NCBI GenBank assembly: GCA_003223245.1
Contig: QHYI01000161.1
Location: 1 to 34,995 of the forward strand
Reading direction: 5' to 3'
Length of the DNA stretch: 34,995 nt
Source of the DNA: Acidobacteriota bacterium
GTDB taxonomy: Bacteria > Acidobacteriota > Terriglobia > Acidiferrales > UBA7541
Numbering within the stretch: position 1 is the first letter of the stretch; each line of letters begins with the position of its first letter. The notes under the pieces are model-generated. The model was not told the DNA's origin. It was given only the letters and a program-made list of their open reading frames with translations, and made no database searches. Position numbers and translations under genes: made by a program. Shown here one piece after another: positions 13,873 through 34,995 of this stretch.

Positions 13873-14468
13873 TGCTCCCTCCCGGAACACAGCCTCGCTT
13901 CCGAGCTTCGATCCAACCGCAATTTTCAAAACTCATGAAAGGGCAGGTCCCCTTGCAAGCACTTAAAGGCAAGCCACATCTCTCTGTTTTTTTTCGAGAT
14001 TAGCGCCCACGGCGTATCCCAGGCGCACAAGTCCCCTCGGTATATTCTCGACATCGAATTCAGGCGGGGCCTGCCCCCCTTTTAGGGCAATATCTGGGGC
14101 GCCACAATCCGGTAAACACCTGAATCTGCGGGATGGACCGAACCACCAACCCTCCTGGTTCCGCCTTGCAAGTACAAGTAAAAGCAAAAGTAAAAAGTCC
14201 ATAAGCCATCGTCTGGGCGTCACTTACCGGAGATTTTCTTCGTGGCGAGAATAAAGCGACGGCGGTTCGAGACTTGATGCGAGGGCTGGCTATAATAGAT
14301 AAGTGGAATCCCACGAAGGAGGAGGTTTTCTAGAATCGCATCAGTAAATTCCTGGGAAAGCTCGTACAGACTCGTATAGATTTTGAAGCACTAAATTCTC
14401 TCGAGTTGATCGCAGCGGTCACGTTTCTGCATCTATAATAGTGTTCGTTCGCGTTGGTTGCAAAACGC
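13873..14468. other. 596-bp intergenic region, no gene recognised
   Basis: It lies between two minus-strand genes. The stretch 14162-14198 is a simple A/G-rich low-complexity run. A GGCGGGGCCTGCCCCCC-TTTT sequence near 14064-14084 could fold but has no plus-strand gene before it. AAGGAGGAGG near 14314-14323 looks like a strong ribosome binding site, but only a 14-codon frame crosses it and no start follows at the right distance. The kinase promoter should lie here but I could not identify it. Confidence 0.4.
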
Positions 14469-16745: not shown

Positions 16746-16903
16746 ATTCCGCAGCGCACCGAAAGCAATCGAAACCTTTCAACGCGCCATAGCGTGTCAT
16801 AAAGGAGCGATACGAAGCAATATGAAACGCGCCGCTTCGCCGATCGCGGCTTCGCTCTTTGTCGTTGCGGAAGAAAGACGGGCCAGCTGAAAGGAACTTC
16901 GCG

Positions 16904-18844
16904 GTGGGTGGATGCCCGCATCGCCATACGCTCCTCGGTCTCGACGAGCCGATTGCGCGTCGTGATTTCCTGGATGGAGTACTGCTGGCCTCCGCGGATG
17001 TGTTACTGGCCCGGTCCTGCCCGATTCTTCTCCGTGCCCAAGGAACCGGTGAAATCAGTGCTGACTGGACGGGATATACCGGAGAGGGCGACTACCAGGC
17101 CTCTGCCGGCAATACCGAACGAGTGATCCAAAACGCGCATGCAGTGCGCGATGGGCAGTATGACAAACCTCGGTCGGAATCCACGGAAACAGGCGAGGCA
17201 TACGACTGCATTGTGGTCGGAGGAGGCTTCGCCGGTTTGTCGGCCGCGCTATTCTTCTCCGAGCAAGCCGGTCCCAAGCGCAACTGCCTCATTCTCGACA
17301 ATGCGCGAATCTTCGGCGGGGTCGCCAAACGAAATGAATTCGTCGTGGACGGCCATCGCCTGTTCGCCCCGCAGGCGTCGGTTCATTTTCAACCGCCCTA
17401 TCCGGACAGCTTTCTGAAAAGCGTCTATGACGCCATGGGCTTGGACTGGGATGCGTTCCAGTCCTATCAGAAATGGCAAGGTCCCTCGCCTGAAATTTCC
17501 CTGCCGCGAAGCGCATACGGTCAAGGGACGATGAACGGCAAGCCCGCGGTGGGTTTCTTCTTCGGCGCGAAGTACGGGCACAAGCCGGGAATCTGGATCA
17601 CCGACCCGTGGGGCAAGAAACTCGAAGGAACTCCCTTCCCGGAGACCACCCGCAGCGAAATGTTGGCGCTACACGGCGAACAGGCGGTTCGCCCGCCGCT
17701 GGTTTACGACTATCCGGGCGACGCCGTCTCACGGCAGCTTGACAGTATGACTCTCGAGGACTACCTCATACGCACCTACGGCGTCAGTCGCGAAACGATT
17801 CGCCTGCTGGTCGCAGGGGAATCGAGCGGCGGATTTGGCCTGGGCCCCGATGCACTATCCGCATTCCTTTACTATGAATGGTCCAAGGTCATTCCGACGG
17901 TCGACGACAGCATGGCGACAGGGATTCAAATGTTCCCTGGCGGCAACTCCGGCATGATTCGATTGCTCGTCAAAACTCTCATCCCGGAATCGATAGTAGG
18001 ACCGCGCACCATGCAGGCGGTCTGGAACAACCCGGTGAACTTCTCTGCCTTGGACCGAACCGGTCAGCGAGTTCGCCTGCGGCTCGATTCCACGGCGGTT
18101 CGTGTCGAACACCTCGGCGAGCCGGACAAATCGGATTTCGTTTCGGTCACCTACACCAATGGCGGTCGCCTCTTTCGAGTCAAAGCGAAGACTGTGGTTA
18201 TGGCCGGAGGCGGTTGGATGACCAAGCACGTGGTCCGCGATTTGGATGAGACCCGGCGCAAGAGCTACGAAGAATTCAACTACTCGCCCTATATGACGGC
18301 GAACGTCGCCGTTCGCAACTGGCGCTTCCTCTACAACCTGGGCATCTCCAGCGCCGAGTGGTTCGAGGGCTTCGGCCGTTATGTCAACGTGCGGAAAAGC
18401 GCGACGTTTGGTGTCGATTCGCCAACGATTGGCCCGGATCTGCCCACCGTGCTCACCTTCTTCGTCGATTTCGCCAAGCCGGGCCTTCCGGCTCGCACCC
18501 AGGGTCAGCTGGGCCGCGCGGAGTTGCTTTCCACCTCATTCGCCGATTACGAGCGGCAAATACGCCAACAGATGACCGACATGTTTGCCGCCTCGGGCTT
18601 CGAGGCCAGGCGCGACATCGCCGGAATCGTGCTCAACCGCTTTGGTCACGCTTTCATTAATCCGCAACCCGGGTTCTTCTTTGGACGGGACGGCCAACCT
18701 GCTGCTCGCGATGCGCTTCGCAATGGTCCTTTCGGTAGAATCGCGTTTTCTCATTCCGATTTGGCCGGAGCGATGGATCATCGCAACGCGTTCTTGGAGT
18801 CCAAACGTGCAGTGAATCAACTCCTGGATCGCGTCCTAACGTAG
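16904..18844 (+). CDS. Tat-exported FAD-dependent oxidoreductase, spermidine-dehydrogenase-like
   Basis: 646 residues. A twin-arginine signal (IARRDFLDGVLLAS, Arg pair at residues 19-20) is preceded by the LGLDEPI stretch seen in acidobacterial and proteobacterial spermidine dehydrogenase-like proteins. A Rossmann FAD motif (CIVVGGGFAGLSAALFF, about residues 102-118) and a later VVMAGGGWMTKH support a flavin amine-oxidase-like fold. Expected role: FAD-linked oxidation of an amine or other small substrate outside the cytoplasm; substrate not readable. I chose GTG 16904, with AAAGGAA seven bases upstream, over TTG 16859 which lacks a ribosome binding site. The TonB-dependent receptor starts 21 bp downstream, so the two form an operon. 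Confidence 0.83.
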   Translation: MGGCPHRHTLLGLDEPIARRDFLDGVLLASADVLLARSCPILLRAQGTGEISADWTGYTGEGDYQASAGNTERVIQNAHAVRDGQYDKPRSESTETGEAYDCIVVGGGFAGLSAALFFSEQAGPKRNCLILDNARIFGGVAKRNEFVVDGHRLFAPQASVHFQPPYPDSFLKSVYDAMGLDWDAFQSYQKWQGPSPEISLPRSAYGQGTMNGKPAVGFFFGAKYGHKPGIWITDPWGKKLEGTPFPETTRSEMLALHGEQAVRPPLVYDYPGDAVSRQLDSMTLEDYLIRTYGVSRETIRLLVAGESSGGFGLGPDALSAFLYYEWSKVIPTVDDSMATGIQMFPGGNSGMIRLLVKTLIPESIVGPRTMQAVWNNPVNFSALDRTGQRVRLRLDSTAVRVEHLGEPDKSDFVSVTYTNGGRLFRVKAKTVVMAGGGWMTKHVVRDLDETRRKSYEEFNYSPYMTANVAVRNWRFLYNLGISSAEWFEGFGRYVNVRKSATFGVDSPTIGPDLPTVLTFFVDFAKPGLPARTQGQLGRAELLSTSFADYERQIRQQMTDMFAASGFEARRDIAGIVLNRFGHAFINPQPGFFFGRDGQPAARDALRNGPFGRIAFSHSDLAGAMDHRNAFLESKRAVNQLLDRVLT

Positions 18845-18865: not shown

Positions 18866-21800
18866 ATGCTTAGCGCAATTCTGGTTCGCAGACTAACCCA
18901 AATCTTTGGGTTTATCGCGCTCGGACCGATGCTTGCGGTAACGACCTTCGCACAGGTTGATGCGGGGGCAATATCCGGCACCGTCAAAGATCCGAGCGGC
19001 GCGGTCATTCCCGGCGTCAGGGTGACCGTCGCCAATGAAGATACGGGACTCTCCATGTCGACCACCAGCGGCTCCGCTGGCGAATATGCTTTTTCGCCCG
19101 TCAAGATTGGACATTACTCAGTGTCCGCAGAAATGAAGGGCTTCCAAAAGGTCCAGCAGAAAAACGTTACAGTGGAGGTGCAACAGAGGGTCGTCGTCGA
19201 TTTCACGCTGGCGCCGGGCCAGGCGATGGAGACCATCGTCGTAAACGCGGAACCTCTCGTACTCCAGACACAAGACGCGTCTGTCGGACAGGTGATTCGC
19301 GAACGCACGATAGACGCTCTTCCCCTGAATGGACGTAACTACATCTTTCTTGCCCAGCTCTCTGCCGGCGTCACTCAGGATCAGCAGGACACGCGTGGGC
19401 TCGGCGCCAGCGGAAGCTTTGCCGCGAATGGCCTGCGACCCGCACAAAACAACTATTTGCTCGACGGAATTGACAATAATGTTGACCTCGTCGACTTCCT
19501 GAACGGCACGCATTTTGTGGTCCGCCCTCCTGTCGACGCCATCCAAGAATTCAAGATTCAAACCAATAGCTTTAGCGCCGAGTTCGGACGGTCCGCCGGC
19601 GCCATTCTGAATGCCACCATTAAGTCCGGCACCAACCATTTCCACGGAACGCTCTGGGAATTCCTTCGCAATGACAAGTTCGACGCTGCCAATTTTTTTG
19701 AGAATGCCGGAGGAATTCCCAAAGGAGAATTCCGGCAAAACCAATTCGGCGGATCCCTCGGCGGTCCGATAATCCTTCCGCATCTCTATCACGGCAAGGA
19801 TAAGACCTTTTTCTTTTTCGATTATGAGGGTACCCGCATCCGCCAAGCTGTTCCCTATACTTCAACGGTTCCCACGGCCCTGGAACGCTTGAGCGGCTAT
19901 ACCAATCTTTCCGAACTCCTCACGCAAGGCGGCACGCAAACCGATGTTCTCGGGCGAACCACGCCGCTCGGCCAGGTTTTTGATCCCTCCACCACGCGCG
20001 CGGTGTTCTGTGGTATGGCCGATCCCGTCACGGGACTCACGCCGCCTAGCGGGGCGGGTACCGCTTGTCCCACCGGAACTCCGGCGGGAACTCAAGCAGG
20101 GTTTGTCCGCGAACCCTTCTCGGGAAATCTCATTCCGGCAACCCGGCTTGATCCGAACGCGATTAGCTTGCTGAATCTGTTTCCCGCGCCGAACAACGCC
20201 AGCTTGTTCTCCAATTTCGCGAGTAATCCCGTCTTGCGCGTCAACGCCAACCAGTTTGATGCGCGCGGCGATCAGGTCATCGGCGACCAGGACCAAATGT
20301 TTATCCGTGTCAGTTACTCCGATACGCCCGAGTTCATCCCTGGACCCTTTACCGGAATCGCCGACGGCGGCTCTTTTTCGGCCGGCGACCAAACCGCAAA
20401 ATCGTGGAACATTGCCCTGAGCGAAACACACACGTTCTCTCCGCTTCTCGTAAATGAAGCCCGCATCGGCGTCAATCGCATCGACACCACACGTGTTCAG
20501 CCATTCAGCAACGACCTGCGCAATATTCCCAATCAATTTGGCATTCAGGGGGTTCCGCAGGTGCCCTCCAATGGGGGCCTCGGGACCATTTTCATCACCG
20601 GACTGAACACTTTGGGCAGCAACCAATTCCTTCCGTCCATCGAGACCAGCCAGACCTCGCAGTACACGGACAACCTCACCAAAGTTTGGGGAGAGCAGAC
20701 CATGAAGTTTGGCTTCGAGCACCAGCACTTACGCTTCACCATTCTGCAGCCGCCCTCCGGCCGCGGAGCGTGGTCCTTTAGCGGGGTGTACACGGAAGTT
20801 CCCTCGCAAGGCGGAGGGAATACGGGATTGGCACAGCTGCTGTTGACCCCCATCAAGGGTACGGTTTCCGGCGCGTCCGACTTTGTCGGCGGCGCAGATA
20901 ATGTGCAGGCTTCCAACTACGCCAACACGGATATGGGCCGCAACTATAACGCCGCGTACATACAAGATGAGTGGAAAGCCACTCCTAAGCTGACAGCGAA
21001 TTTAGGGCTGCGGTGGGAATATTTTGGTCAAATTGCCGAGCGCTACGGCGCACAAACCAATTTTCAACCGGCCGCGACACCGGGGGGCACTTCGGTATTT
21101 CTGCTCACCCAGCGGAGATGCGGCGTGCCCTTCTCCGCCGATTTCAAGGCCGCCGCTGCAGCGGACAATATCAGCATCGTGTGCTCGAACGTAGGCGGGC
21201 TCGGTCACTCGCAGAAGACCAATTTCGGCCCGCGTACCGGTTTGGCCTATCGCGTGACGTCCAAGTTCGTTGCGCGTGCCGGCGCCGGTCTGTTCTTTGG
21301 CGGCTTTGAGAACTCCGTTGTTGAAACCTATGTCGATTTTCCGTTCCAGTTCAATTTGTCTTATCCCTCGCTTGCGCCGAATCTGCCCATCACTTTCGCA
21401 AATGGCGCGATCGGGACACTCGAAACCGGGCTTTCCGCGCTTGTGCCCATTACGTCTGCCGTAGCAGAACCCGCGGGCTCGAGCTTGATTGGCGAAGACT
21501 ACCATATGAAAACGCCTTACACCCTGAGCTACAACCTCACTCTGCAGTACGAGCTTTCCGCGGGTCAGACCGTGCAGGCAGCCTATGTAGGCAACGGTGT
21601 GAGGCACTTGGGTGTGTACATCAATCCGAATTCACCGAACGAGATTCTTCCTCCGGGACTGAACTCGTTCCAGTATTCTCCGTATCCCGATTTTCCGACC
21701 GGCTTTACGTATTCGAGTTTTGCTGGAAACAGCTACTACAATTCTCTCCAACTCAATTATGAGCGGCAGTTCAGCGCGGGCTTGGAGGCGCTCGCGAATT

Positions 21801-22531
21801 TCACCTGGTCCAAGTGCCGGACCGATGCCTCCGACGTCCTCAACGAAACGGCGATCTTCTATCGCGCCCCGCGGCTCCCGGGGTTCGGCATCCAGGGAGA
21901 CTACGGGCTGTGTGATTTCGACATCACCAAGGTCTTCCATTTCAGCGGCGCCTACCAGTTGCCCATCGGCAAGGGAAAGCGCTTCCTCGCAAATAGTGCT
22001 GCGCTCGTCGACGGTGTGCTGGGAGGCTGGAAAACCAACTGGATTCTCACGCTCCAGGACGGCCAGCCGCTTACCGTTCCGTGTGTTAGTTCCACGACTT
22101 CCGGATTTGGCTGCAATGCTCTTCTTGTTCCCGGGCAGAACAAATACGCTGGTCCGCACAACGTGGACCATTGGCTGAACCCCGCGGCCTTTGCCAGCCC
22201 GGCCGTCGCGACCACCATAGGGCAGTCGGATCGCTCGCCCTTGGGCGGCTCCCCGACTCAATTCTATGGCCCCGGCTTTCACCGAATGGACTTCTCCCTA
22301 TTCAAAGATTTCCGCACGTCCGAAAACACGCACTTTGAGTTCCGATCCGAGTTTTTTAACCTCACCAACCATCCTAACTTCTCGCCCCCCGGATTTAGCG
22401 GCAACGGGGTCCTGTCCGCGCCCGGTTCGCTCGATTACACTTCGCCGTCTACCTTCGGCAAGATAGCGTCGACACGCGACGGCCAGAACGACCAGCGCGA
22501 AATTCAGTTCGCCCTGAAATTCTATTTTTGA
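18866..22531 (+). CDS. TonB-dependent receptor, Oar-like, with N-terminal carboxypeptidase-regulatory-like domain
   Basis: 1221 residues. Signal peptide to about residue 29 (cut after TTFA), then a CarboxypepD_reg domain (ISGTVKDPSGAVIPGVRVTV, about 34-115), a plug domain with the typical acidobacterial LPLNGRNY motif, GLRPAQNNYLLDGIDNN, and FGRSAGAILNATIKSGTN. A long beta-barrel follows, ending in FALKFYF with C-terminal Phe for outer-membrane assembly. Such receptors import large substrates or release products across the outer membrane with TonB energy. It lies 21 bp after the FAD oxidoreductase, so both are probably expressed together and may handle the same compound. Confidence 0.93.
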   Translation: MLSAILVRRLTQIFGFIALGPMLAVTTFAQVDAGAISGTVKDPSGAVIPGVRVTVANEDTGLSMSTTSGSAGEYAFSPVKIGHYSVSAEMKGFQKVQQKNVTVEVQQRVVVDFTLAPGQAMETIVVNAEPLVLQTQDASVGQVIRERTIDALPLNGRNYIFLAQLSAGVTQDQQDTRGLGASGSFAANGLRPAQNNYLLDGIDNNVDLVDFLNGTHFVVRPPVDAIQEFKIQTNSFSAEFGRSAGAILNATIKSGTNHFHGTLWEFLRNDKFDAANFFENAGGIPKGEFRQNQFGGSLGGPIILPHLYHGKDKTFFFFDYEGTRIRQAVPYTSTVPTALERLSGYTNLSELLTQGGTQTDVLGRTTPLGQVFDPSTTRAVFCGMADPVTGLTPPSGAGTACPTGTPAGTQAGFVREPFSGNLIPATRLDPNAISLLNLFPAPNNASLFSNFASNPVLRVNANQFDARGDQVIGDQDQMFIRVSYSDTPEFIPGPFTGIADGGSFSAGDQTAKSWNIALSETHTFSPLLVNEARIGVNRIDTTRVQPFSNDLRNIPNQFGIQGVPQVPSNGGLGTIFITGLNTLGSNQFLPSIETSQTSQYTDNLTKVWGEQTMKFGFEHQHLRFTILQPPSGRGAWSFSGVYTEVPSQGGGNTGLAQLLLTPIKGTVSGASDFVGGADNVQASNYANTDMGRNYNAAYIQDEWKATPKLTANLGLRWEYFGQIAERYGAQTNFQPAATPGGTSVFLLTQRRCGVPFSADFKAAAAADNISIVCSNVGGLGHSQKTNFGPRTGLAYRVTSKFVARAGAGLFFGGFENSVVETYVDFPFQFNLSYPSLAPNLPITFANGAIGTLETGLSALVPITSAVAEPAGSSLIGEDYHMKTPYTLSYNLTLQYELSAGQTVQAAYVGNGVRHLGVYINPNSPNEILPPGLNSFQYSPYPDFPTGFTYSSFAGNSYYNSLQLNYERQFSAGLEALANFTWSKCRTDASDVLNETAIFYRAPRLPGFGIQGDYGLCDFDITKVFHFSGAYQLPIGKGKRFLANSAALVDGVLGGWKTNWILTLQDGQPLTVPCVSSTTSGFGCNALLVPGQNKYAGPHNVDHWLNPAAFASPAVATTIGQSDRSPLGGSPTQFYGPGFHRMDFSLFKDFRTSENTHFEFRSEFFNLTNHPNFSPPGFSGNGVLSAPGSLDYTSPSTFGKIASTRDGQNDQREIQFALKFYF

Positions 22532-24359: not shown

Positions 24360-27300
24360 TTAGTCAGGTTGGCTCTTGGGCCGAGGAGGAGGAGCAGAGA
24401 GACCTGCGAGGGCCCTCCGTTTTTCCTCGATTTCGTTCGTTTCCTTTTGTAGACGCATGAACGCATCCAGCGCTTTGCCACGATCTTCTGTCTTCCCAAG
24501 CTGCCTGTACACGTTCGCCAGAACATAGTAGTACGAGGACGCCCGAGGATTTAGAGAAACTGCGTGGGCCAGAGCCTCAGCCGCATCGTTGAGCCGGCCT
24601 TGCGCCTCATCGGCCTTTGCCTTTTGAAACCAGGCGCCATCACATTCAGGATCGATCTGCAATGCCGCGAGCGCATATTCGCGGGCTTTTTCGTAATCGC
24701 CCTTACGGTTGTAATAGCCGCTCAGGTTTACGTGGGCAGAGACGAATCTTCCCTTCTTGGCCTCATTGAGGGCGATGGCTTTCTCATAACTCGCAACGGC
24801 TCCAGCCCCGTCTCCCAAAGCTTCCTGAGCAAATCCCAGAGCATCCCACGCTTCCATGTACAAAGGGTCGATACGGAGCGCCTGTTCAAATTCTTTTCGC
24901 GCAGCCGCCCAGCTGTCCTGAATGGAGAATAGTTTGCCCAGGTTCAAATGCATCTCGGCTGACTGCGGGCTGTACCTGATTCCTTGTTCAAACTCTGTTT
25001 GAGCCGCGTCGAACTTTCCAACAACCATAAGATCGCGGCCAAGAATCTTGTGGGCCTCCGCGTTCCGGACATCGAGTTGGAGTGACCTGGCCAGCGCCTG
25101 AATGGACTCCCCAATTTTTCGCTGCGCGAACTGGCTGTACCCCAGTGCGTACCAACCCCAAGAGGATTCCGGGTGCTCTTTCACATAGGCGACAAGCAGC
25201 GGCTCGACATCCTGAAACCGTCCTTCGCGGATGTAATCTTCGAATTGGCTGATACGAGTTGGCTCATCTGCAGCGCCTCTTTCGCTGGAAAGCGCGGCGA
25301 TTCTCTCCCTGGCGAGGATATCGCCCGGATTCAGTTCAAGAGCTCTTCGATAGGCCGTCGAAGCGCCCTCCGCGTCACCCCGCTTTTCAAGAACTGCTCC
25401 CAGAAAATGTTCGGCATCGGCGGATTCGGGCTGCAGTTCGAGCGCGTGCCGAAACTTGGCTGCGGCTTGCCCCAAATCCCCTTGTTCGAGCGCAACATGG
25501 CCTTCCGCGATATCCAAAGCCGCGTTCTGCCTTCGATCGTCCGAGGAAGCCAGTTCTCGGCTTTTTTGCAACTCAACAGCACCCTCGTCCTTGTGTCCTG
25601 CCCGAACCAAAGCCAGCCCCAGTTGATAATGAGCCTGGGTATTTTGTGGCTCTAGACGGACTGCTTCTCGAAGTTCTCCGACGGATTCCTCCACTAGCCC
25701 TTCGCCGAGAAGGCTTCTGCCCAGGGCGAGCCGGGCTCCGGGAAAATCCGGCTGACTGGCGATCACCTTGCGCAGCTGTTCGATTTCTCTGGTCCGTCCG
25801 TAGTTCGCATTCTCCCCATAAGCTATTGCTAGATTGAACCGCGCTTTCAGGAAGCCTGGCGCGAGCGCCACAGCCCTCTCCAATTCATGCACCGCCCCTT
25901 CGCTGTCCGAAGTGGTTAGGACTGCACCTAAGTTTGCGTGAGCGTCCGCGTAATCCGGGCTGATGCGCAAGGCTTCCAGGAACTCGACGATGGCTGCCTT
26001 CTCGTCATTATCCTGCGCCAATACAAGCCCCATGTTGTTGTGGGCCTCTGCAAAATCGGGGCGCAGGCGCACGGCCTCACGAAACTCTGTCAAGACTTCT
26101 TTGCTACTGGCGCCCCTGCGTCCAAGAAGGAGTCCAAGCACATTGTGAGCTTCAGCGTTGTCCGGTTTTGTAGCAAGTGTCTTTCGAAGCTCCGTCGTCG
26201 CACCGTTCCAATCGGGTGTCGGACCAGAGGGAGCAGGGACGTTTATCCCTGCCTCGAACTGCCCGACAGCTCTATCAAGTTCTCCCCTGCGGAGATAAAC
26301 GATTCCAAGGTCAATGTAAGTCGATGAAACGGCGGGCAGAAGAGCGATGGCGCACTGGAGGTTTCGCCTTGCCTCGTCTAATTCCCCAGTTTGAAGCAAT
26401 GTCGTGCCGAGGAATGCATAGGCGGAGCCCGCACCCGGGTCGAGGCGAACAGCCTCTCGCAACTCTGCAACGCTTTTAGCTTTTGAGCCGCTATACCACA
26501 ATGCAACGCCCCAATTGTAATGCGCGTCGGCCAATCCGGGGCGGAGGGCAACCGCGCGCTCCAAGTGCGGCAATGCCGAAGTAAGGTCGCCCTGCTGCCC
26601 CAATACAAAACCGAGCAAATTCTGCGCCTCGGCGTGGTTGGTATCTTTATCCACGGCTTCGCCTAGGAGGCGCTCCGCCTCTTTCAGTTCGCCCCGCTCC
26701 GCAGCCTGCTGCCCTCTGTGAAATAAATCGTCGGCGGGGCTCGCAGACGGTTGACGCGGCTTATGTAATGCTGCGGCCTCTTGCTTCAAGGCCACGCCGA
26801 GGGCGTAATAACCTTCACGAAACTCGGGATTAATCCGAAGCAGATCCTCGAAGGTCTTGATTGCCCCGCTGAGATTTCCGCCCTGCTGCAAGGTCTGGCC
26901 CAGCAGAGAAAGCGCCGTGACGTTACTTGGCTCGCGCTTAGCGACAAACTGGAAATGCACTAGGGCGTTTTTGCTGTCGCCTTTTTCCCGCAGGGCGATG
27001 CCCAGATTCAGATGCGCGGCTACATTGTTGGGCTCAAGCGACAAGGCCTTTTGAAAAAAAACGACCGCGCCGGCTACATCACCATTCTTTGCCGTCGCGG
27101 ATCCCAGGTTTGTGTATGCGCGGGCATATTTTGCGTTGCGGGAGATGGCTTTTTTGAACTCGGTGATGGCGCCCGGGAAATCACCCTGTTGCATTAGAGC
27201 GGCGCCCAGCCAATTGTGAGCTTGGGCGGACGCAGGGCCGAGCTTCACGGCGTGTTGAAACGCTTCGAAAGCACGCGCATAGTCGTTCTGACCCCAGTAA

Positions 27301-27476
27301 GCCAATCCTAGTTCGACGTAGAGATTGGAGCTGCTAGGACGCTGTTTTATTCGATTTTCAATTTGGCTGACCGACGCGGGGGCCTTTTCTTCTGCCTGGG
27401 GCCAGACGCCAGTGGGCAGCCCCAGAACCAAAGCGGCCAAGCTCATGCTCCGAACGGCTTTTGCGCCGAAACCCAT
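24360..27476 (-). CDS. Large exported tetratricopeptide-repeat protein
   Basis: 1038 residues. ATG 27476 has GGAG four bases upstream. An N-terminal signal peptide (SLAALVLGLPTGVWPQ, to about residue 27) is followed almost end to end by more than twenty 34-residue TPR units, such as AHNNMGLVLAQDNDEKAAI and AHNWLGAALMQQGDFPGAI. Only short linkers break the array (about residues 210-230, 415-430, 700-715). No catalytic domain is visible. TPR superhelices bind partner proteins, so a periplasmic or outer-membrane scaffold is likely. It is transcribed divergently from the second TonB-dependent receptor across a 577-bp regulatory region, and a second TPR gene lies at the right edge; all these genes may serve one uptake system. 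Confidence 0.9.
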   Translation of the reverse strand: MGFGAKAVRSMSLAALVLGLPTGVWPQAEEKAPASVSQIENRIKQRPSSSNLYVELGLAYWGQNDYARAFEAFQHAVKLGPASAQAHNWLGAALMQQGDFPGAITEFKKAISRNAKYARAYTNLGSATAKNGDVAGAVVFFQKALSLEPNNVAAHLNLGIALREKGDSKNALVHFQFVAKREPSNVTALSLLGQTLQQGGNLSGAIKTFEDLLRINPEFREGYYALGVALKQEAAALHKPRQPSASPADDLFHRGQQAAERGELKEAERLLGEAVDKDTNHAEAQNLLGFVLGQQGDLTSALPHLERAVALRPGLADAHYNWGVALWYSGSKAKSVAELREAVRLDPGAGSAYAFLGTTLLQTGELDEARRNLQCAIALLPAVSSTYIDLGIVYLRRGELDRAVGQFEAGINVPAPSGPTPDWNGATTELRKTLATKPDNAEAHNVLGLLLGRRGASSKEVLTEFREAVRLRPDFAEAHNNMGLVLAQDNDEKAAIVEFLEALRISPDYADAHANLGAVLTTSDSEGAVHELERAVALAPGFLKARFNLAIAYGENANYGRTREIEQLRKVIASQPDFPGARLALGRSLLGEGLVEESVGELREAVRLEPQNTQAHYQLGLALVRAGHKDEGAVELQKSRELASSDDRRQNAALDIAEGHVALEQGDLGQAAAKFRHALELQPESADAEHFLGAVLEKRGDAEGASTAYRRALELNPGDILARERIAALSSERGAADEPTRISQFEDYIREGRFQDVEPLLVAYVKEHPESSWGWYALGYSQFAQRKIGESIQALARSLQLDVRNAEAHKILGRDLMVVGKFDAAQTEFEQGIRYSPQSAEMHLNLGKLFSIQDSWAAARKEFEQALRIDPLYMEAWDALGFAQEALGDGAGAVASYEKAIALNEAKKGRFVSAHVNLSGYYNRKGDYEKAREYALAALQIDPECDGAWFQKAKADEAQGRLNDAAEALAHAVSLNPRASSYYYVLANVYRQLGKTEDRGKALDAFMRLQKETNEIEEKRRALAGLSAPPPRPKSQPD

Positions 27477-27715
27477 TGAACTCCGGCCCCTTCATCGCGG
27501 CGCGAACCGGTTGTTCGCGATTATCACCCCGCCGAGGAGTAGAGAATAGCGCCGCGTAGACTCGCTGTAAACGAATACCTGGGTTTTCGCCAAGTCGAGC
27601 GATTTGTCCAGGAAGGTCCTGGCATAGGGGCGGTCAAGCGTTTTTGCGTAATCTCTTTTCTTTTTAGAGTTTTCCTAAGATGCGAAAATTATTTTTTGAA
27701 GGTTCCAAAAAAATC

Positions 27716-27744
27716 TTGACATCCACTGCCCCAGGGAGTAGAAA
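27716..27744 (+). promoter_or_regulatory. Sigma-70-like promoter of the second TonB-dependent receptor
   Basis: TTGACA at 27716-27721, a 17-bp spacer and TAGAAA at 27739-27744. The -35 box is a perfect match and the -10 matches at four of six positions. An A/T-rich stretch lies directly upstream. Transcription would start near 27751, giving a leader of about 300 nucleotides. Confidence 0.65.
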
Positions 27745-27760
27745 GCGGGGCAGTTAGGGA

Positions 27761-27768
27761 AAACGTTT
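27761..27768. promoter_or_regulatory. Possible LacI-family operator core
   Basis: AAACGTTT, set in GGGAAAACGTTTACTT, is a palindrome with a central CG like operators of LacI-family sugar repressors. It lies about 10-18 bases after the predicted transcription start, where a bound repressor would block RNA polymerase. No LacI-family gene is in the window, so this is inference from the motif. Confidence 0.35.
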
Positions 27769-27770
27769 AC

Positions 27771-27788
27771 TTATCCCCTAGGGGATAA
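27771..27788. promoter_or_regulatory. 18-bp perfect palindrome in the receptor leader
   Basis: TTATCCCCTAGGGGATAA is fully self-complementary. It has no loop, so binding of a dimeric regulator to DNA is more likely than an RNA hairpin. It starts two bases after the AAACGTTT core, about 20-38 bases after the predicted transcription start. Confidence 0.55.
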
Positions 27789-28053
27789 AGACGAATTCTC
27801 CGAACTTTCAAAGTTTGGGGACTGAAGCGAGTCGCTCGGCGAGCGGCTCCCGCGTGGAACAACCAGGGGGTGTGGAACCAGAGAACTCACAAAGTCAAAT
27901 TCTGCCTCACAAAGACCCACTCGACTTGCAATCAGAGCGGGGTCTGGCTGCACGCGGGATAGCTCGCGGAATGCTGAGGTGGCTTTGGTTCCACGCACAT
28001 CGGGGAGTTCACGCCGGACGGCTGCAGCATTTGAGTCTGCGGGAGGCGTGAAA

Positions 28054-31000
28054 ATGAGGCGAGCATTAGCTCTGGGCGTCTTGTTGGTGTGTGCTTTGCT
28101 TGTGTTCGCAGGACAGGTCGCCCGTGCTCAACAGGCTGATCGGGCTGTCATTACGGGTATTGTCACGGACTCGAGCGGCTCGGCAATTCCTGACGCGAAA
28201 GTCACGATTATTGACGAGAAGACCGGAACAAGAATCGAAGTGGGTACAAACAGCGCCGGAAACTACAGTACTCCCCCACTAATTCTAGGCACGTACACAG
28301 TCCAAGTCGAAAAGAATGGGTTCAAGCTCTCCACCACCAAGGGAATTGTTGTCACCGGCGGGCAGACTTATCGGCAGGATGTAAAGTTGGAGGTTGGCGC
28401 CGTCACCCAGACCGTTACGGTCGAAGGTGGGGTCGAGCAGATCAACACGGACAATGCAACAGTCTCGCACACGATAGGTGAAACCTATTATCGCGATCTT
28501 CCCGCAGCCATGGGGGCCGACATCCGGCTAGCCGAATCTCTGCTGCAGCTTCAGCCCGGCTTTGTGCCTATGCAGCCGAATGGCGACGCCATCTTCCGCG
28601 GCAGCCAGTTCACCTCGCGAATTAACGGCGGGCAAACCTTAGCCACGGAAAACTGGTTTGACGGCGCGGCGTTTGGTTACGCGGAAGGCCACCAGGGAAC
28701 GCAGGAAAGCTCTGTGCCGTACACCTCGGTGCAGGAAATGACCGTGGTGGAAAATACATTTTCGGCGCAATACGGGCACACCAGCGGCGGATTCGTGAAC
28801 TACACCACAAAGTCCGGCACAGACAAGTTCCACGGAAACTTGTACGACTTTTACAGCAGCGACAAGCTAGACGCGGGCAACTTCTTTTTTGCAGGCATAC
28901 CCACGATCCCTAATAAGAAACTTCCCCTCACTCAGGATAACTGGGGAGCCGCGATTGGCGGGCCGGTTCCTAAGATCACCAAGTGGGGCAAGACCTTCTG
29001 GTTCTTCAATGTGGACGGCCTCGACTATCACAGCACGGTCAATACTGGCTTTGTGAATACTCTTCCAACGGCCCTTCAGAGGCAAGGAGACTTTAGTGAG
29101 TTCCTGACGGGCAAGCAGGCGGTTGACTCAAAGGGGAACCCACTTTTCGATGCGCTTGGCCGACCCATTATGCAAGGGGCCATTTACAATCCAGCGACGA
29201 CGCGTTTAGTTAACGGAGTGCCGGTTCGCGATCCTTATCCGGGGAACGTCATCCCTGCCAATGACCCTTTGCTGAGTTCGCTCGGCGCATTCATGGCGCC
29301 GATTATCCCTGCGCCGGACCGCAATACTCTGGCCATAAACGGTTTTGGCGGGAGTTCGGACGACAACAACAAAATCCACGTGAGGACGTGGCTTTTCCGA
29401 ATCGATCATACGTTCAACAATAAGTTCTCCATCAGCAACACCTATTATCAGAACAACAGGCCGCGCATCGCGCACTGCGGCGGACCGGATGGCTGCAACA
29501 CGCTGCACGACGGGGAGACAGATTCCGCCGCGAATGATACGTACATTGGGCAAGGCTTTTTCCAGCGTATCACAAACCATTTTGAGCATTTGCAGATGAA
29601 TTGGGTGATTAAACCGAACCTTTTCAATCACACCACGCTGGCCTACGATCGCTGGCACATGCAAGGCAACCAGCTGTCAGGAGGGGTTGGCTGGAACCAA
29701 AAGCTGGGGCTTGGCTTGCCGAACGCACCCGTATTCAACAAAGCCGGCTTCCCCTCGATTAACTTCAGTGGACCGCAGGGTTACACAGCTTATGGTACGC
29801 CGTGGGCGAGTGGTGGGAGCGATATCAACAATCGCTACCAGTTCCTGGATGATGTGAGCTGGATCACTGGCAAACACACCCTGAAAGCTGGGATCGAGTA
29901 TCGTTACATGAACTTCCCGCAAACCGGTTGGGCCGTAAACACCGGCGGGAGCTTTAACTTTAGTTCCAATGAAACTGCCGCCTACGATGCCTCGGGGGCT
30001 AACAGAAGCGATGTGAGCGGGAACGGGTTTGCTTCGCTGCTACTGGGACAAGTGAATAGCGCCGGCTTTTCTATACCGTTCAATTATATGCCTAAGATGA
30101 AATATGCCGCTCCTTGGGTCAATGATGACTTCAAACTGACGCCCAAGCTTACGTTGAGCTTGGGCTTGCGGTTTGACTGGCAATCCGGGCTTTACGAAGA
30201 GCACGGTCGTTTTTCGACATTCGATCCCACAGCGCAAAACCCCGTTGGCCATTTGGGAGCGACGATTTTCAACAGCCCGAAGGCCAACGGCAACAGCAAC
30301 TGGAATGTTGGGCCGCGCTTCGGTTTCGCCTACGCCCTGGGTGAGAGTGGTAAGACCGTAATCCGCGGTGGTTATGGAATCTATTATGCAGGAGCGCAGG
30401 CCGACTCCTGGGACCCGTATCCGGTAGACGGCTATCAAACGAACCCGACCGCGCCGAACGTGACTAACGGTCTACTACCGGCCTTTTACTTCCAGGGCAC
30501 GGGCAGTTGCCCCACCCAAGAGACTTCCCAGGGTATTTCCTGCGGATGGCCCGCGGGCTCTATTGTTCTGCCTCCCCAACTTAAGGCTGATGTCGCGAAC
30601 GGCGGGAATCCTGTAGGGGTCGACCCCAAGACCTACACCATGCCGCGGTATCAGAACTGGTCCATCTCGTTCCAGCGACAATTGACGCAGAACATGGCCG
30701 TCGATATCGCGTACGTGGGCAATCATGGGACCCGACTCATTGATGGCCGGAGCTCGGCCGGAGTTTTCGACAACATGAATCCCGGAAGCGTCCTTGCTCT
30801 GGGGAGTGTTCTTACAACTGGGGCCTTCACAAACGGTGTTCCTAATGCTGCGGCCGTTGCCGCCGGATTCACAACACCTCCGTACCCGGGGTTCACGGGG
30901 GACATAGCCCAGTCGCTAAGGATGTGGCCACAATATCAACAGATTAACTGGCGTTATTTCCCGAACGGCGCAAGCCATTACAATGCACTCCAAGCCAGCT

Positions 31001-31719
31001 TTGACCGACGCATGAGTCAGGGCTTGCAATTCAGGGTGGCTTACACCTATTCGCGCCTGATGAACAACGGCGCAGAGACAGGGCTCGGCTCCGGGGGACC
31101 TCCCGTGCAAAATCCCAGCGACATGCGCGACCTTTACACGGTCAGTTCCGACGATGTCCCGCACATTTTGACCTTGGGCTGGCAGTACCAATTGCCTTTT
31201 GGCAAGGGCAAATGGCTCGGAAGAGACGCGAACGGAGCTTTGGACAAGGTCATCGGGAATTGGGAAGTTTCAGCCATACAAACATACCAATCGGGCAGAC
31301 CGCTATCCATCACGATGGCAAACAACAGCCTGGGGGGATATCTCTTCAACTACGTCCAATTTCCCAACAGGGTCAGCGGCACGAACCCCCTCACGGGAAA
31401 CTTTAGCGATCCCAACAAGGACACTTATTTGAACGCGACGGCGTGGGCCGACCCAGGACAGTTTGGGTTTGGCAACGCGCCTCGCGAAAATGAGAATGTC
31501 CGCTGGTTCGGGTACAGGAACGAGGACTTTTCCATCCAAAAGGACACCTACTTCAGTGAGGGCAGATATGTTCGATTCCAGGGCGATGCCGGAAATGTCC
31601 TTAACCGCGTTTTCTTCTGTCCGCCCGTCACGGCCTTGGGTAACAGCAAGTTCGGCACAACTGGTAGCCAGTGTAATATCCCCAGGCGGTGGCAGCTCGC
31701 CTTGCAAATCTTCTTCTAG
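28054..31719 (+). CDS. TonB-dependent receptor, Oar-like, with N-terminal carboxypeptidase-regulatory-like domain
   Basis: 1221 residues from ATG 28054, which has GGAGG seven bases upstream; the frame is open further back but without such a site. Signal peptide to about residue 25 (LLVFAGQVARAQ), CarboxypepD_reg domain (ITGIVTDSSGSAIPDAKVTI, about 30-115), plug domain with VVENTFSAQYGHTSGGFVNY, and a long barrel ending in WQLALQIFF with C-terminal Phe. The plug lacks the LPLNGRN motif of the other receptor (here DLPAAMGADIRL), so the two are distinct paralogues and probably differ in ligand. Expression is likely controlled at the palindromes after its promoter. Confidence 0.93.
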   Translation: MRRALALGVLLVCALLVFAGQVARAQQADRAVITGIVTDSSGSAIPDAKVTIIDEKTGTRIEVGTNSAGNYSTPPLILGTYTVQVEKNGFKLSTTKGIVVTGGQTYRQDVKLEVGAVTQTVTVEGGVEQINTDNATVSHTIGETYYRDLPAAMGADIRLAESLLQLQPGFVPMQPNGDAIFRGSQFTSRINGGQTLATENWFDGAAFGYAEGHQGTQESSVPYTSVQEMTVVENTFSAQYGHTSGGFVNYTTKSGTDKFHGNLYDFYSSDKLDAGNFFFAGIPTIPNKKLPLTQDNWGAAIGGPVPKITKWGKTFWFFNVDGLDYHSTVNTGFVNTLPTALQRQGDFSEFLTGKQAVDSKGNPLFDALGRPIMQGAIYNPATTRLVNGVPVRDPYPGNVIPANDPLLSSLGAFMAPIIPAPDRNTLAINGFGGSSDDNNKIHVRTWLFRIDHTFNNKFSISNTYYQNNRPRIAHCGGPDGCNTLHDGETDSAANDTYIGQGFFQRITNHFEHLQMNWVIKPNLFNHTTLAYDRWHMQGNQLSGGVGWNQKLGLGLPNAPVFNKAGFPSINFSGPQGYTAYGTPWASGGSDINNRYQFLDDVSWITGKHTLKAGIEYRYMNFPQTGWAVNTGGSFNFSSNETAAYDASGANRSDVSGNGFASLLLGQVNSAGFSIPFNYMPKMKYAAPWVNDDFKLTPKLTLSLGLRFDWQSGLYEEHGRFSTFDPTAQNPVGHLGATIFNSPKANGNSNWNVGPRFGFAYALGESGKTVIRGGYGIYYAGAQADSWDPYPVDGYQTNPTAPNVTNGLLPAFYFQGTGSCPTQETSQGISCGWPAGSIVLPPQLKADVANGGNPVGVDPKTYTMPRYQNWSISFQRQLTQNMAVDIAYVGNHGTRLIDGRSSAGVFDNMNPGSVLALGSVLTTGAFTNGVPNAAAVAAGFTTPPYPGFTGDIAQSLRMWPQYQQINWRYFPNGASHYNALQASFDRRMSQGLQFRVAYTYSRLMNNGAETGLGSGGPPVQNPSDMRDLYTVSSDDVPHILTLGWQYQLPFGKGKWLGRDANGALDKVIGNWEVSAIQTYQSGRPLSITMANNSLGGYLFNYVQFPNRVSGTNPLTGNFSDPNKDTYLNATAWADPGQFGFGNAPRENENVRWFGYRNEDFSIQKDTYFSEGRYVRFQGDAGNVLNRVFFCPPVTALGNSKFGTTGSQCNIPRRWQLALQIFF

Positions 31720-31854
31720 GTTCACCCCCGCCCCGGGGAGACCTGCCGCGGATGGTCCGCAAGGGTCGTCTACGGTTAGTTGATTAACCCTCGAAAAAAG
31801 ACTAGCGGGCAGATCCAGCATGTTCGGGTGTACATCTCGGTGGCAGCGTGCCTG

Positions 31855-33753
31855 TCACGCGCCTAATTTCTGGCGCCTTGTAATTCCGTGGCCTTCCTGC
31901 AAGATTAGGAGTTGGTTTGCTTTGACATTTTTGAATGATTCCATCAAACCCAAGGGCCAGCGAACCTCCACCAAATCCGCCTGCCTGGCCCGACCCAGCC
32001 CAAAATGCAAACGAAAGTCATTTTGAGATAAAAAGCTAGACCCGCTCAGGACCTCATTCATCTGCGAATGCCTGCCGGTAACCACCCGGACGCGCGCGCC
32101 AATGGCACTGCGATTGGACTTCGTGCCGATGCACTTGACCTTTAGCCAATTGGTTCTCGATGGCGAGTCGTTGCGGAGGAGCGAGGGAGGCTCATTCATA
32201 TTTATGACAGCGACGTCGACGTCTCCATCATTGTCGAAGTCACCGAAGGCCATCCCGCGGCTGGGGCGGGGTTGCGTCACGGCCGGCCCGCTGATCGCTG
32301 TCACGTCCGCAAAGCGACCGTGGCCAAGATTCCTATAAACAATTTTTCTTTGTTCGAAAGTGACGTGTAACTTTCGCGCGTCCACCTCGGGGAAGACGTG
32401 GCCGTTGGACATGAATATGTCTGGCCAGCCGTCGTTGTCGAAATCAAAGAGACCGACTCCCCATCCCAGGTACTTTGTGTTCGCGCCCAGTCCCGCTTGA
32501 AACACGGCATCATAAAAAGTGCCGTCTCCGTTGTTGTGATATACGTTCGCGGTTTGGTCGGAATAGTTGGTCTTGATTATGTCCAACCAGCCGTCGCAAT
32601 CGTAGTCCCCGACGCCCACTCCCATGCCGCCCTGCGCTTTTCCGTTCCCGTCTAAGGCGCAGCCGATCTCCGAGCCGACCTCTTCGAAGGTTCCATCATG
32701 ATTGTTATGGTAGAAACGACTTGCGACGGAATCGCACGCGACATAAATGTCCGGCCAGCCGTCGTTGTCAAAATCCGCGGCGCACACTCCGAGACCGTAA
32801 GAGCCCGCGGGAATCCATTGGTCGCTGACGAAGGTGGGAACCGCCGGACCCCGCGGAACTACGACGCCGGATCGCTCAGAAACGTCCTCGAACGTTCCAT
32901 CGCCGCGATTGTGATACAGGATATTGGTGCCGCCGCTTAGTCCTTGCGGTCCGCATCCGATGGAGAGGCCAAAGTAGCGGCAATACTGGCTGTCGCCGGG
33001 CTGAGGAGCGGACGGTGGATCAAAATTCACGTAGTTTGCGACAAACAGGTCGAGAAGGCCGTCGCGGTCGTAATCCACAAAGCAGCAGCCGGTATTCCAT
33101 CGCGGAATTGGTTCTTTTTGCAGAAGGCCAGCCTTTTCTGTAACGTCGGTGAATGTCCCATCCCCGTTGTTGTGGTAAAGGACGATTCCGCCCCAGTAGG
33201 TCACAACCAGGTCATCAAAGCCGTCGTTGTCATAGTCTCCGACACAGCAACCCTGTCCCCATCCTGAGCGCGTCAGTCCGGCTTTTTCAGTTACGTTAGT
33301 AAACGACCCATCGCGTTTATTGCGAAACAAGAAGTTCGTCGGCGGGTGTTCTGGCGAGAGGCCTTCGAATCTCGTTCCATTAACTAGGAAGAGGTCCAAC
33401 CAACCATCGTTGTCATAGTCGAAAAACGCTAGACCGCAACCAAGTTCTTCCAGGAGGTACCGCTTGCGTGTAACGCCACCAAAAACGTTGGTTGCGTGGC
33501 CTAAGCCTGCCTGATCGGCTACGTCCGTGAAATGAAAACTCGCCCTGGATGTGGAAGCGGCCCCGGTTTTCCCTGTTGCCGTGGCTGTCCGCGGCCTTTG
33601 GAGACTCAGTGTTTCACGGAGCGCCGGCAAAAGCAGGGACGCGGGCACTATAGAACCACATCTCCCGAGTTGACGGAGAAAACCGCGACGCGAAATCTGT
33701 TCCAACTTCCTGGTGCTAAGCGAACTCCCCCGGTTAACCAAATGACTCGACAT
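31855..33753 (-). CDS. Tat-exported CRTAC1-family protein (FG-GAP repeats plus ASPIC/UnbV)
   Basis: 632 residues from ATG 33753. A twin-arginine signal (ISRRGFLRQLG, residues 20-30) is followed by about seven FG-GAP/VCBS-like units with calcium-binding DxDxDG loops (DYDNDGWLDLF, DYDNDGFDDLV, DYDRDGLLDLF, DFDNDGWPDIY, DYDCDGWLDII, DFDNDGWPDIF, DFDNDGDVDVA), probably forming a beta-propeller. A C-terminal ASPIC/UnbV domain (IGARVRVVTGRHSQ to VEVRWPLG) completes the CRTAC1 layout. Such proteins are exported, bind calcium and are thought to bind glycans or proteins; activity unknown. The start lies seven bases after the stop of the TPR gene, so the two are cotranscribed. The longer GTG-type start at 33837 would place 28 unlikely residues before the Tat signal. 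Confidence 0.92.
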   Translation of the reverse strand: MSSHLVNRGSSLSTRKLEQISRRGFLRQLGRCGSIVPASLLLPALRETLSLQRPRTATATGKTGAASTSRASFHFTDVADQAGLGHATNVFGGVTRKRYLLEELGCGLAFFDYDNDGWLDLFLVNGTRFEGLSPEHPPTNFLFRNKRDGSFTNVTEKAGLTRSGWGQGCCVGDYDNDGFDDLVVTYWGGIVLYHNNGDGTFTDVTEKAGLLQKEPIPRWNTGCCFVDYDRDGLLDLFVANYVNFDPPSAPQPGDSQYCRYFGLSIGCGPQGLSGGTNILYHNRGDGTFEDVSERSGVVVPRGPAVPTFVSDQWIPAGSYGLGVCAADFDNDGWPDIYVACDSVASRFYHNNHDGTFEEVGSEIGCALDGNGKAQGGMGVGVGDYDCDGWLDIIKTNYSDQTANVYHNNGDGTFYDAVFQAGLGANTKYLGWGVGLFDFDNDGWPDIFMSNGHVFPEVDARKLHVTFEQRKIVYRNLGHGRFADVTAISGPAVTQPRPSRGMAFGDFDNDGDVDVAVINMNEPPSLLRNDSPSRTNWLKVKCIGTKSNRSAIGARVRVVTGRHSQMNEVLSGSSFLSQNDFRLHFGLGRARQADLVEVRWPLGLMESFKNVKANQLLILQEGHGITRRQKLGA

Positions 33754-33760
33754 GTTTGGA

Positions 33761-34111
33761 TTATTCTGGCAACAGCAACCGAAGACGCAGGTCGCTCTGC
33801 GCCCTGCGCTCGGCTTCCAATTTTCGCGACTTGGCAAACTGTTCCTCAGATTCGTTGAGTTTGCCGAGGCGGCGGAATAACAGGCCCAGCTGGTAGTGGG
33901 CCTCTACAGACCCTGGATCGAGCGCGACCGCCCGCTCAAGATCTTGCCGGGCTTCGTCATACTGGTGTTGTCTCAAGAGAATGCTGCCCAACTTGGCGCA
34001 CGAAGGGGCATGGTCAGGATGGTCCTCGAGGAGGTTGCGAAACACAGCGACAGCCTGATCCGCCTGTCCAACGGCATCATACGTGAGACCCAACCGCGCC
34101 CATTGCGTAGT
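33761..34111 (-). CDS. C-terminal part of a frameshifted TPR gene
   Basis: The frame opens after a TGA at 34112 and carries about three TPR units, beginning LGLTYDAVGQADQAVAVF and continuing with CAKLGSILLRQHQYDEA and AHYQLGLLFRRLGKLNES, ending RLRLLLPE. The only candidate start is TTG 34093, inside a TPR helix and without a ribosome binding site. This is best read as the continuation of the TPR protein encoded just upstream in another frame. It ends seven bases before the CRTAC1 gene. Confidence 0.7.
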   Translation of the reverse strand, partial: TTQWARLGLTYDAVGQADQAVAVFRNLLEDHPDHAPSCAKLGSILLRQHQYDEARQDLERAVALDPGSVEAHYQLGLLFRRLGKLNESEEQFAKSRKLEAERRAQSDLRLRLLLPE

Positions 34112-34995
34112 TCAGGATGGCATCCTGGGGACGCTTTTGCAGAAGCCCCGCGAGAAGGGATGCCGCTTTGGCCAAGTCGCCTTTAGCGACATTGGCTGAG
34201 GCCAGAACATAAACATAGGGATCATGATCGGGCTTCAGCGAGACAGCCCTGGAAAGGGCGGGCCAAGCGTCTTCCAGTAAATTTCGCTGCAAGCACACTT
34301 TTCCGAACTGGAATAAGACCTCGGGATCGTCAGGAGCCTGTTTTTTCGCCTCAATCAAGTAGGCCAGGGCTTTCTCCGTGTCTCCCTGGTGCACTGCAAT
34401 CTCGGCGAGTTTTTGGTTGCAGACCACGCACGCGGCGTCTAAGGTGAGCGCGGTTTGGAAGCTTTGCTCAGCGCGCTCGAGAAGTCCCAGGGAAAAGTAG
34501 GCCTCTCCGAGTTTCAAGGCTAGAAGGGAAGAGGGGCGCGCAGCGGTCCTTGTCTCTGCGGCTTCCAGAACTTCCTTCGCCTCCGGGGTCATTCCGTATT
34601 TGGCCAAAACACTAGAGAGTTCCATTGAGGATTCGTCAGACGGAACAGAGATCTTCTGCCAGTTACGAACCAGACCCCTCAGCTCTTCTGTTTTTCCTAG
34701 GGCTCCATAGTCTGTCGCCAGCAGAAGGATGCCATCATCAGACGCGCTTAGCTGAGGCACGATGGGTTCCGCTATGTCCAGAGACTTCTGATAATTCTGG
34801 AGGAATGCCTCCACCTTGGCCAAGTCAAAGCGGGCGTTGAGGTTGCCGGGATCAAGTCTGAGGGCTTCCAGGAAACTTTTTTGGGCCAGGTGCGATTTTC
34901 CCTGGAGCAAGTAGGCGTTTCCCAAACTTGTTCGAGCGCCAACCAGTCGAGGATTGAGCGCTAGAGCTTGCGTCAGGAAGTGTGTGCTCTCCTTG
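34077..34995 (-). CDS. TPR protein, main part (5' end outside window, frame broken at 3' end)
   Basis: Open from the right edge: the frame continues upstream of the TTG at 34925 through residues such as HFLTQALALNPRL, so the true start is outside the window. About 305 visible residues consist of TPR units (ARTSLGNAYLLQGKSHLAQK, AYFSLGLLERAEQSFQTAL, LFQFGKVCLQRNLLEDAW). It ends abruptly at TGA 34077 in the middle of a TPR helix (ILNYAMGAVGSHV), and the TPR pattern resumes at once in the next frame. Together with that piece it would be a TPR partner of the CRTAC1 protein. A genuine mutation and a sequencing error are both possible. Confidence 0.8.
   Translation of the reverse strand, partial: KESTHFLTQALALNPRLVGARTSLGNAYLLQGKSHLAQKSFLEALRLDPGNLNARFDLAKVEAFLQNYQKSLDIAEPIVPQLSASDDGILLLATDYGALGKTEELRGLVRNWQKISVPSDESSMELSSVLAKYGMTPEAKEVLEAAETRTAARPSSLLALKLGEAYFSLGLLERAEQSFQTALTLDAACVVCNQKLAEIAVHQGDTEKALAYLIEAKKQAPDDPEVLFQFGKVCLQRNLLEDAWPALSRAVSLKPDHDPYVYVLASANVAKGDLAKAASLLAGLLQKRPQDAILNYAMGAVGSHV
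34080..34111 (-). other. Frameshift site in the TPR gene
   Basis: Both frames are open here. The minus strand reads ATGGGCGCGGTTGGGTCTC. Taking out ten bases between the two TGGG copies would join ILNYAMG directly to LTYDAVGQADQAV, a perfect TPR helix pair; a one-base change would also restore a frame but leave three extra residues. Confidence 0.6.

Follow-up and report, generated by a model that had tools for sequence, protein, structure and literature searches.

The closest described counterparts of the locus reported here are the SusC/SusD polysaccharide-utilization loci (PULs) of Bacteroidota, the CRTAC1/ASPIC-UnbV family that includes murine CRTAC1, and the propellers of the VCBS superfamily. 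The accessible portions of two papers group lectins, aldos-2-ulose dehydratase, integrins, and rhamnogalacturonan lyase as related propellers (PMC8023676; PMC3123361), and one of them counts the PL11 rhamnogalacturonan lyase among calcium-blade propellers (PMC3123361). For Candidatus Solibacter usitatus, the accessible portion of a study of paralog groups gives ASPIC/UnbV, TonB receptor, and CnaB-type proteins as separate groups (PMC3174227). Here we analyze a stretch of 34,995 nucleotides from an Acidobacteriota bacterium (contig QHYI01000161.1; hereafter the window), positions 24360-34995 of which encode two tetratricopeptide-repeat (TPR) proteins, a TonB-dependent receptor (TBDT), and a CRTAC1 protein. 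An initial annotation had read these four genes as a possible uptake machine that follows the logic of a PUL, with TPR scaffolds and a beta-propeller instead of SusD and glycosidases.

CRTAC1 genes group with TPR genes, and with TBDT genes, more often than expected by chance. The locus is best read as a capture locus that lacks SusD, is linked to TonB, and has TPR-CRTAC1 as its core, a reading to which we assign a probability of roughly 0.4. As a whole, the initial interpretation is partly supported.

Association of CRTAC1 with TPR proteins and TonB-dependent receptors

Open reading frame (ORF) and domain analysis confirmed all four genes, in the order TPR1 (-), TBDT (+), CRTAC1 (-), TPR2 (-). 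The window is the entire contig C127 of a 6.3 Mb genome in 237 contigs (95.8% complete) that contains 36 UnbV_ASPIC matches and at least 72 OMP_b-brl_4 matches, the latter merged by hand to at least 65 TBDT genes (65 of 116 candidates scored). Because genes were called as longest ORFs and with profiles seeded from the window, all counts are approximate.

In this genome a TPR gene is directly adjacent or fused to 17 of 31 CRTAC1 genes, while TPR accounts for 2 of 299 random genes. A phylum sample of 40 loci from other genomes gave 36/68, against 1 TPR among 289 random genes, and a set of 80 named loci gave 49/85; these direct-neighbor counts omit CRTAC1 ORFs that are shorter than 300 aa or lie at a locus end, and the TPR tally includes neighboring fusions. 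Four of the 40 phylum loci had no CRTAC1 call and were retained in per-locus counts, and the controls were 20 random stretches from the same genome and 20 from the phylum. At a distance of up to 5 kb, a TPR ORF accompanies 27 of 37 CRTAC1 ORFs of the genome but 10 of 294 random genes, and a TBDT accompanies 19/37 versus 20/294, rising to 26/37 versus 34/294 at up to 10 kb. Counted by stretch, TPR was held by 21 of 26 around CRTAC1 and by 1 of 20 random ones (Fisher p 2e-7), and TBDT by 18/26 versus 3/20 (Fisher p 3e-4), in tests that treat clustered genes as independent. The co-occurrence count that the initial annotation had proposed as a check was thus positive, with TPR beside or fused to about half of CRTAC1 genes and making up less than 1% of random genes, and the random-stretch controls in genome and phylum led us to reject a chance neighborhood of the three families. 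An earlier estimate (TBDT up to 10 kb from 20 of 36 CRTAC1 matches, chance 23.3%, p 3e-5) was set aside because its TBDT list, drawn from the same 65 scored candidates, was incomplete, omitting at least two TBDTs in random stretches (L144, L145).

Conservation of the locus

Close orthologs of the window's CRTAC1 (79-84% identity) occur in 4 of 40 relatives, and the same four carry a close TBDT ortholog (77-87%), in a search that scored up to 30 CRTAC1 and 16 TBDT candidates per genome. The two orthologs adjoin each other in all four loci (L231-L234), all of which also have a TPR2 ortholog and keep the order TPR-CRTAC1-TBDT; the distal TPR gene is present in three. Best-hit orthologs of TPR1 lie near the TBDT ortholog in L231, L232, and L233 (69-96% identity), as a contig-truncated 254-aa fragment in L231 and with three ORFs intervening before the TBDT in L233; none was found in L234, whose contig stops about 3.3 kb past the receptor. 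The order TPR-CRTAC1-TBDT-TPR is seen again in L167 and L188, and in the window's own genome the sister locus L045 reads TPR-CRTAC1-TBDT-GH127, all on one strand. L232, L233, and L234 carry an additional, divergent CRTAC1 past TPR2, and L053 has one next to the same-genome relative; this region is absent from the window.

The family is widespread: PF07593 occurs in 64 of 149 genomes of the phylum, with a top count of at least 37 matches per genome. A scan of named genomes yielded 552 confirmed stretches, of which we took the best 80, by title 69 from Acidobacteriota and 11 from Poribacteria, Gemmatimonadota, or Latescibacterota. Many of these best 80 loci are on short contigs. In 54 of them TPR is fused to the focal CRTAC1 or lies no more than 3 kb away, and among the 37 loci that extend 5 kb to either side, TPR accompanies CRTAC1 in 26, a TBDT occurs at up to 5 kb in 20, and 14 combine the two. 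Outside Acidobacteriota, TPR was found within 3 kb of the focal CRTAC1 in 9/11 loci, and a TBDT of the model used (other receptor types were not sought) within 5 kb in 0/11. TPR and CRTAC1 are moreover fused in both domain orders, TPR first for example in L056 and L230 and CRTAC1 first in L154, L179, and L225. Adjacency, fusion, and breadth thus establish a genetic link between TPR and CRTAC1, and since the loci of other phyla mostly have the TPR gene and not this receptor, and fusions run in both orders, TPR-CRTAC1 looks like a conserved core and the receptor like an Acidobacteriota addition.

The Poribacteria loci L198, L203, and L215 share an order of their own: TPR, a protein of about 310 aa, CRTAC1, and a protein of about 636 aa. 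In L203 the shorter of these proteins is of FGE-sulfatase type and the longer is DUF6785/DUF6784.

Predicted fold of CRTAC1

In the window's CRTAC1, the UnbV_ASPIC domain (PF07593, 1.3e-22) follows FG-GAP/VCBS repeats (PF13517, 4.9e-58), and seven Dx[DN]xDG motifs lie at residues 112, 173, 227, 327, 383, 437, and 505. Structure prediction (mean predicted local distance difference test score, pLDDT, 87.8) bears out the proposed beta-propeller: CRTAC1 is confidently predicted to form seven propeller blades that bear calcium-type motifs, plus an ASPIC domain. Of the solved structures among the matches listed, murine CRTAC1 comes closest (9etn; Z 43.5, 457 residues, root-mean-square deviation 2.3), and it also matches by profile (E 2.2e-31). 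By Foldseek, PVL-type lectins, several with GlcNAc sugars bound, and aldos-2-ulose dehydratase (Z 29.7) come next. The PL11 rhamnogalacturonan lyase was not among the 50 structure matches listed, which excludes nothing.

Integrin propellers match the protein by both profile and fold. Judged by what animal CRTAC1 and integrins do, these matches and the closeness of murine CRTAC1 are consistent with an adhesion or matrix system whose propeller and TPR would attach cells to surfaces. The lipobox pattern revealed no surface anchor (see below), and adhesion leaves the receptor and the sugar-related neighbors unexplained; we consider it highly improbable.

A candidate SusD-less capture locus

We suggest that TPR and CRTAC1 act together outside the cytoplasm as a conserved unit of two proteins, possibly a physical complex, which in Acidobacteriota would often be coupled to a TBDT. 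The ligand that CRTAC1, perhaps with calcium bound, would bind or process would be organic, most probably a sugar or glycan. As an adaptor, the TPR superhelix could keep CRTAC1 and further partners close to the receptor, with contacts and a compartment that we infer, and the receptor would carry the ligand across the outer membrane on TonB energy.

The neighbors of CRTAC1 genes in this genome include LacI/periplasmic-binding domains, GH127, Melibiase, GH31, GH29, GH3, and sugar oxidoreductases, and L034 combines a TBDT, a GH5-type and a GH59 enzyme, and two CRTAC1 genes. The absence of SusD noted in the initial annotation holds for the genome: PF07980 (SusD_RagB), the sole SusD model used, had no match, and a Bacteroides control was positive.

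Several observations weigh against a capture locus. For 11 of 37 CRTAC1 ORFs of the genome, the stretch examined contains no TBDT at a distance of up to 10 kb, partly owing to contig ends. A glycosidase is the longest neighbor at 6 of 20 CRTAC1 loci versus 3 of 20 random stretches (p 0.23), a non-significant difference that does not bear out the polysaccharide substrate implied by the initial annotation; the families are GH31, GH5, GH29, GH2, GH127, and GH3 at the loci and GH57, a glycogen-debranching type, and GH3 in the random stretches. For this comparison 24 of 27 loci of the genome had a neighbor of at least 250 aa (the window, L040, and L044 had none), and L033, L041, L042, and L056, which lack a separate TPR or TBDT gene, were left out. 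Lipobox-like N-termini, sought with a crude pattern, are near background in TPR (6/43 in this genome, 15/133 elsewhere), CRTAC1 (3/35, 16/177), and TBDT (2/23, 3/55), and because they are not clearly enriched, surface anchoring, and with it the idea of surface binding proteins, is unsupported. The likeness of CRTAC1 to lectins is one of fold only: LGI1 propellers, which are not sugar-binding, reach Z 30.6, so that fold alone gives no function. A model of a TPR-CRTAC1 fusion folds in parts, with linker and TPR-propeller contact undefined (predicted template modeling score 0.58). Finally, the similarities of CRTAC1 and TBDT are uncorrelated (rho -0.20 to 0.17, p >=0.13), and those of CRTAC1 and TPR correlate slightly (best rho 0.16; one of the twelve tests gave p 0.036, at rho 0.13). 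Lack of co-divergence and the 0/11 count both argue against an obligate pair of receptor and CRTAC1.

A glycosidase enrichment obtained from 80 neighbors and 80 random genes was dropped, as only the first 25 families had been tabulated and a GH57 in the random set (L131) was missed. Strong receptor-CRTAC1 co-evolution was likewise rejected: twelve tests across all pairs did not find it.

Uncorrelated divergence is what would be expected if co-location involved no joint machine, CRTAC1, TPR, and TBDT being large paralogous families that amass in the same variable islands; TPR-CRTAC1 might then be a unit, with the receptor a mere neighbor. This is also consistent with the TPR gene found in 8 of 13 TBDT loci of the genome that lack CRTAC1, and with the variable orientation of the receptor, which lies on the opposite strand in the window. 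Adjacency, however, is kept at all four orthologous loci, and a TBDT is the direct neighbor of CRTAC1 at 5 of 31 genes in the genome and 14 of 85 in the named loci (the phylum sample has just 4 of 68, a further point against the capture locus), while TBDT makes up 3 of 299 random genes of the genome and 2 of 289 of the phylum. We regard mere co-location as somewhat unlikely. TBDT-TPR pairs without CRTAC1 were seen at L061, L064, L065, and L067-L069.

The N-terminus of CRTAC1 raises the alternative of export, not uptake. Tat-like N-termini occur in 20 of 32 CRTAC1 proteins of the genome, and an Oar-like receptor with CarboxypepD_reg might pass Tat-exported, folded CRTAC1 or TPR to the surface; an Oar-type protein is reportedly required for protease secretion in Myxococcus. 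The unenriched lipobox and a receptor that adjoins its would-be cargo fit this, but the Tat-like pattern is found in just 48 of 171 CRTAC1 proteins elsewhere, and the missing co-divergence counts here too, making export improbable.

Some TPR partners and neighbors would fit a periplasmic redox or cytochrome-linked complex. In the genome 3 of 43 TPR proteins contain CxxCH, as do 15 of 133 elsewhere, and the TPR protein of L038 also gave cytochrome-type matches; Cytochrome_C554 was found in 4 neighbors by a Pfam scan covering 111 of the 150 selected from the named loci; and a peroxidase lies in L049 and AhpC/TSA in L052. Most TPR partners lack CxxCH, as do all CRTAC1 proteins (0/35 and 0/177), and we judge this the least probable reading of those considered. 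The TPR proteins close to CRTAC1 in L036 (2988-4850) and L038 (9818-11596) have their CxxCH motif near the N-terminus.

A bolder extension of the capture reading appears doubtful to us: that Acidobacteriota possess capture machines coupled to TonB and independent of SusD, with many paralogs per genome, a TPR superhelix in SusD's place, and CRTAC1 as a sugar-binding or sugar-converting module, and that the TPR-CRTAC1 core predates the receptor link and is common to other phyla.

Layout of the window

Coordinates of the features are collected in Table 1. The spacing of seven bases between the TPR2 stop and the CRTAC1 ATG is as initially described, and TBDT and CRTAC1 are convergent, 135 bases apart. 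Both TPR genes carry TPR domains as claimed, but TPR2 is truncated by the contig edge and its frame is broken, with a stop at 34077 and resumption in another frame at about 34093. The 92 missing bases correspond to about one TPR unit, and the frame of relatives is continuous at this place; a genuine lesion and an error of assembly would explain the frameshift equally well. Full-length relatives of TPR2 are present in L053, L232, L233, and L234. The end of contig C66 of the same genome (L053, 17040-19451) holds a second TPR2-CRTAC1 pair, cut by the contig end, whose members are 72% and 78% identical to those of the window.

Table 1. Coordinates of features in the window
Feature	Positions	Strand	Basis and remarks
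Melibiase/GH31-like glycosidase	14469-16745	-	Same contig, outside 24360-34995, ~7.6 kb from TPR1; candidate locus member
FAD/NAD-binding oxidoreductase	16859-18844	+	Weak matches; same contig; candidate locus member
Second TBDT, CarboxypepD_reg + barrel	18866-22531	+	Same contig
TPR1, 1038 aa, TPR along whole length	24360-27476	-	ORF and domain match; N-terminus Sec-signal-like by eye; divergent from TBDT
Intergenic stretch TPR1/TBDT (divergent genes)	27477-28053	.	Candidate shared promoter region, inferred from gene starts
TBDT, CarboxypepD_reg + OMP_b-brl_4 barrel	27979-31719	+	ORF start GTG 27979; likelier start ATG 28054, by eye
CRTAC1, 632 aa, FG-GAP_3 + UnbV_ASPIC	31855-33753	-	Tat-like N-terminus (SRRGFLRQ); start ATG 33753
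TPR2 3' part, second frame, from about 34093	33761-34093	-	Stop seven bases ahead of CRTAC1 ATG
TPR2 out-of-frame gap	34077-34093	-	Alignment with L231 and L053: 92 bases absent
TPR2 5' part, ended by contig edge	34077-34994	-	ORF and domain match

The receptor has an outer-membrane barrel of TBDT type (PF25183, 4.8e-173); its N-terminus gave weak matches to PqqU and FepA models, and the Pfam scan gave no plug match. The intergenic stretch between TPR1 and TBDT is partially conserved among the window, L231, and L232. The initial remark that glycosidases are missing holds inside 24360-34995 and is limited to those positions, because a Melibiase-like glycosidase, an oxidoreductase, and a second TBDT share the contig. 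The window also encodes, at 8401-13929 (-), a hybrid sensor kinase of 1842 aa with eight HAMP stretches, GAF, histidine kinase, and three receiver stretches. Elsewhere, MacB/FtsX-type permeases lie near CRTAC1 in L032, L035, L036, and L053 (5 of 80 neighbors), accompanied in L032, L035, and L053 by a small ORF that by eye is PadR-like.

Comparison with known systems

Acidobacteriota are abundant in soil and difficult to culture. In a genome with at least 65 TBDT genes and no SusD_RagB match, the receptor-TPR-CRTAC1 set is a concrete candidate for organic-matter uptake. Bacterial CRTAC1 is a multi-copy family to which the accessible portions of the literature searched assign no function, and the set suggests a role for it that can be tested. 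Among open-licence papers, as far as their accessible text goes, none was found that joins CRTAC1/UnbV with TonB, SusC, TPR, or PULs; the Candidatus Solibacter usitatus study, which names its groups separately, describes no ASPIC/UnbV-TonB link and leaves TPR unmentioned in its accessible portion (PMC3174227). The set may be an undescribed nutrient-capture system.

With the VCBS superfamily propellers, PVL-type lectins and aldos-2-ulose dehydratase, the window's CRTAC1 shares seven blades, the Dx[DN]xDG motif, and the fold, as far as the accessible portion of the source describes them (PMC8023676); the comparison covered fold and motifs, and sugar binding is hypothetical. With murine CRTAC1 (9etn) it shares the propeller and the ASPIC domain, but it is bacterial, has a Tat-like signal, is one of 36 matches in its genome, and is paired with TPR. 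The differences from SusC/SusD PULs are that SusD_RagB is without a match, that the partners show no lipobox enrichment, that TBDT and CRTAC1 do not co-diverge, and that TPR-CRTAC1 also occurs without the receptor. What the two have in common is the arrangement itself: a TonB-dependent receptor beside soluble helical-repeat and beta-rich partners, joined at some loci by glycosidases.

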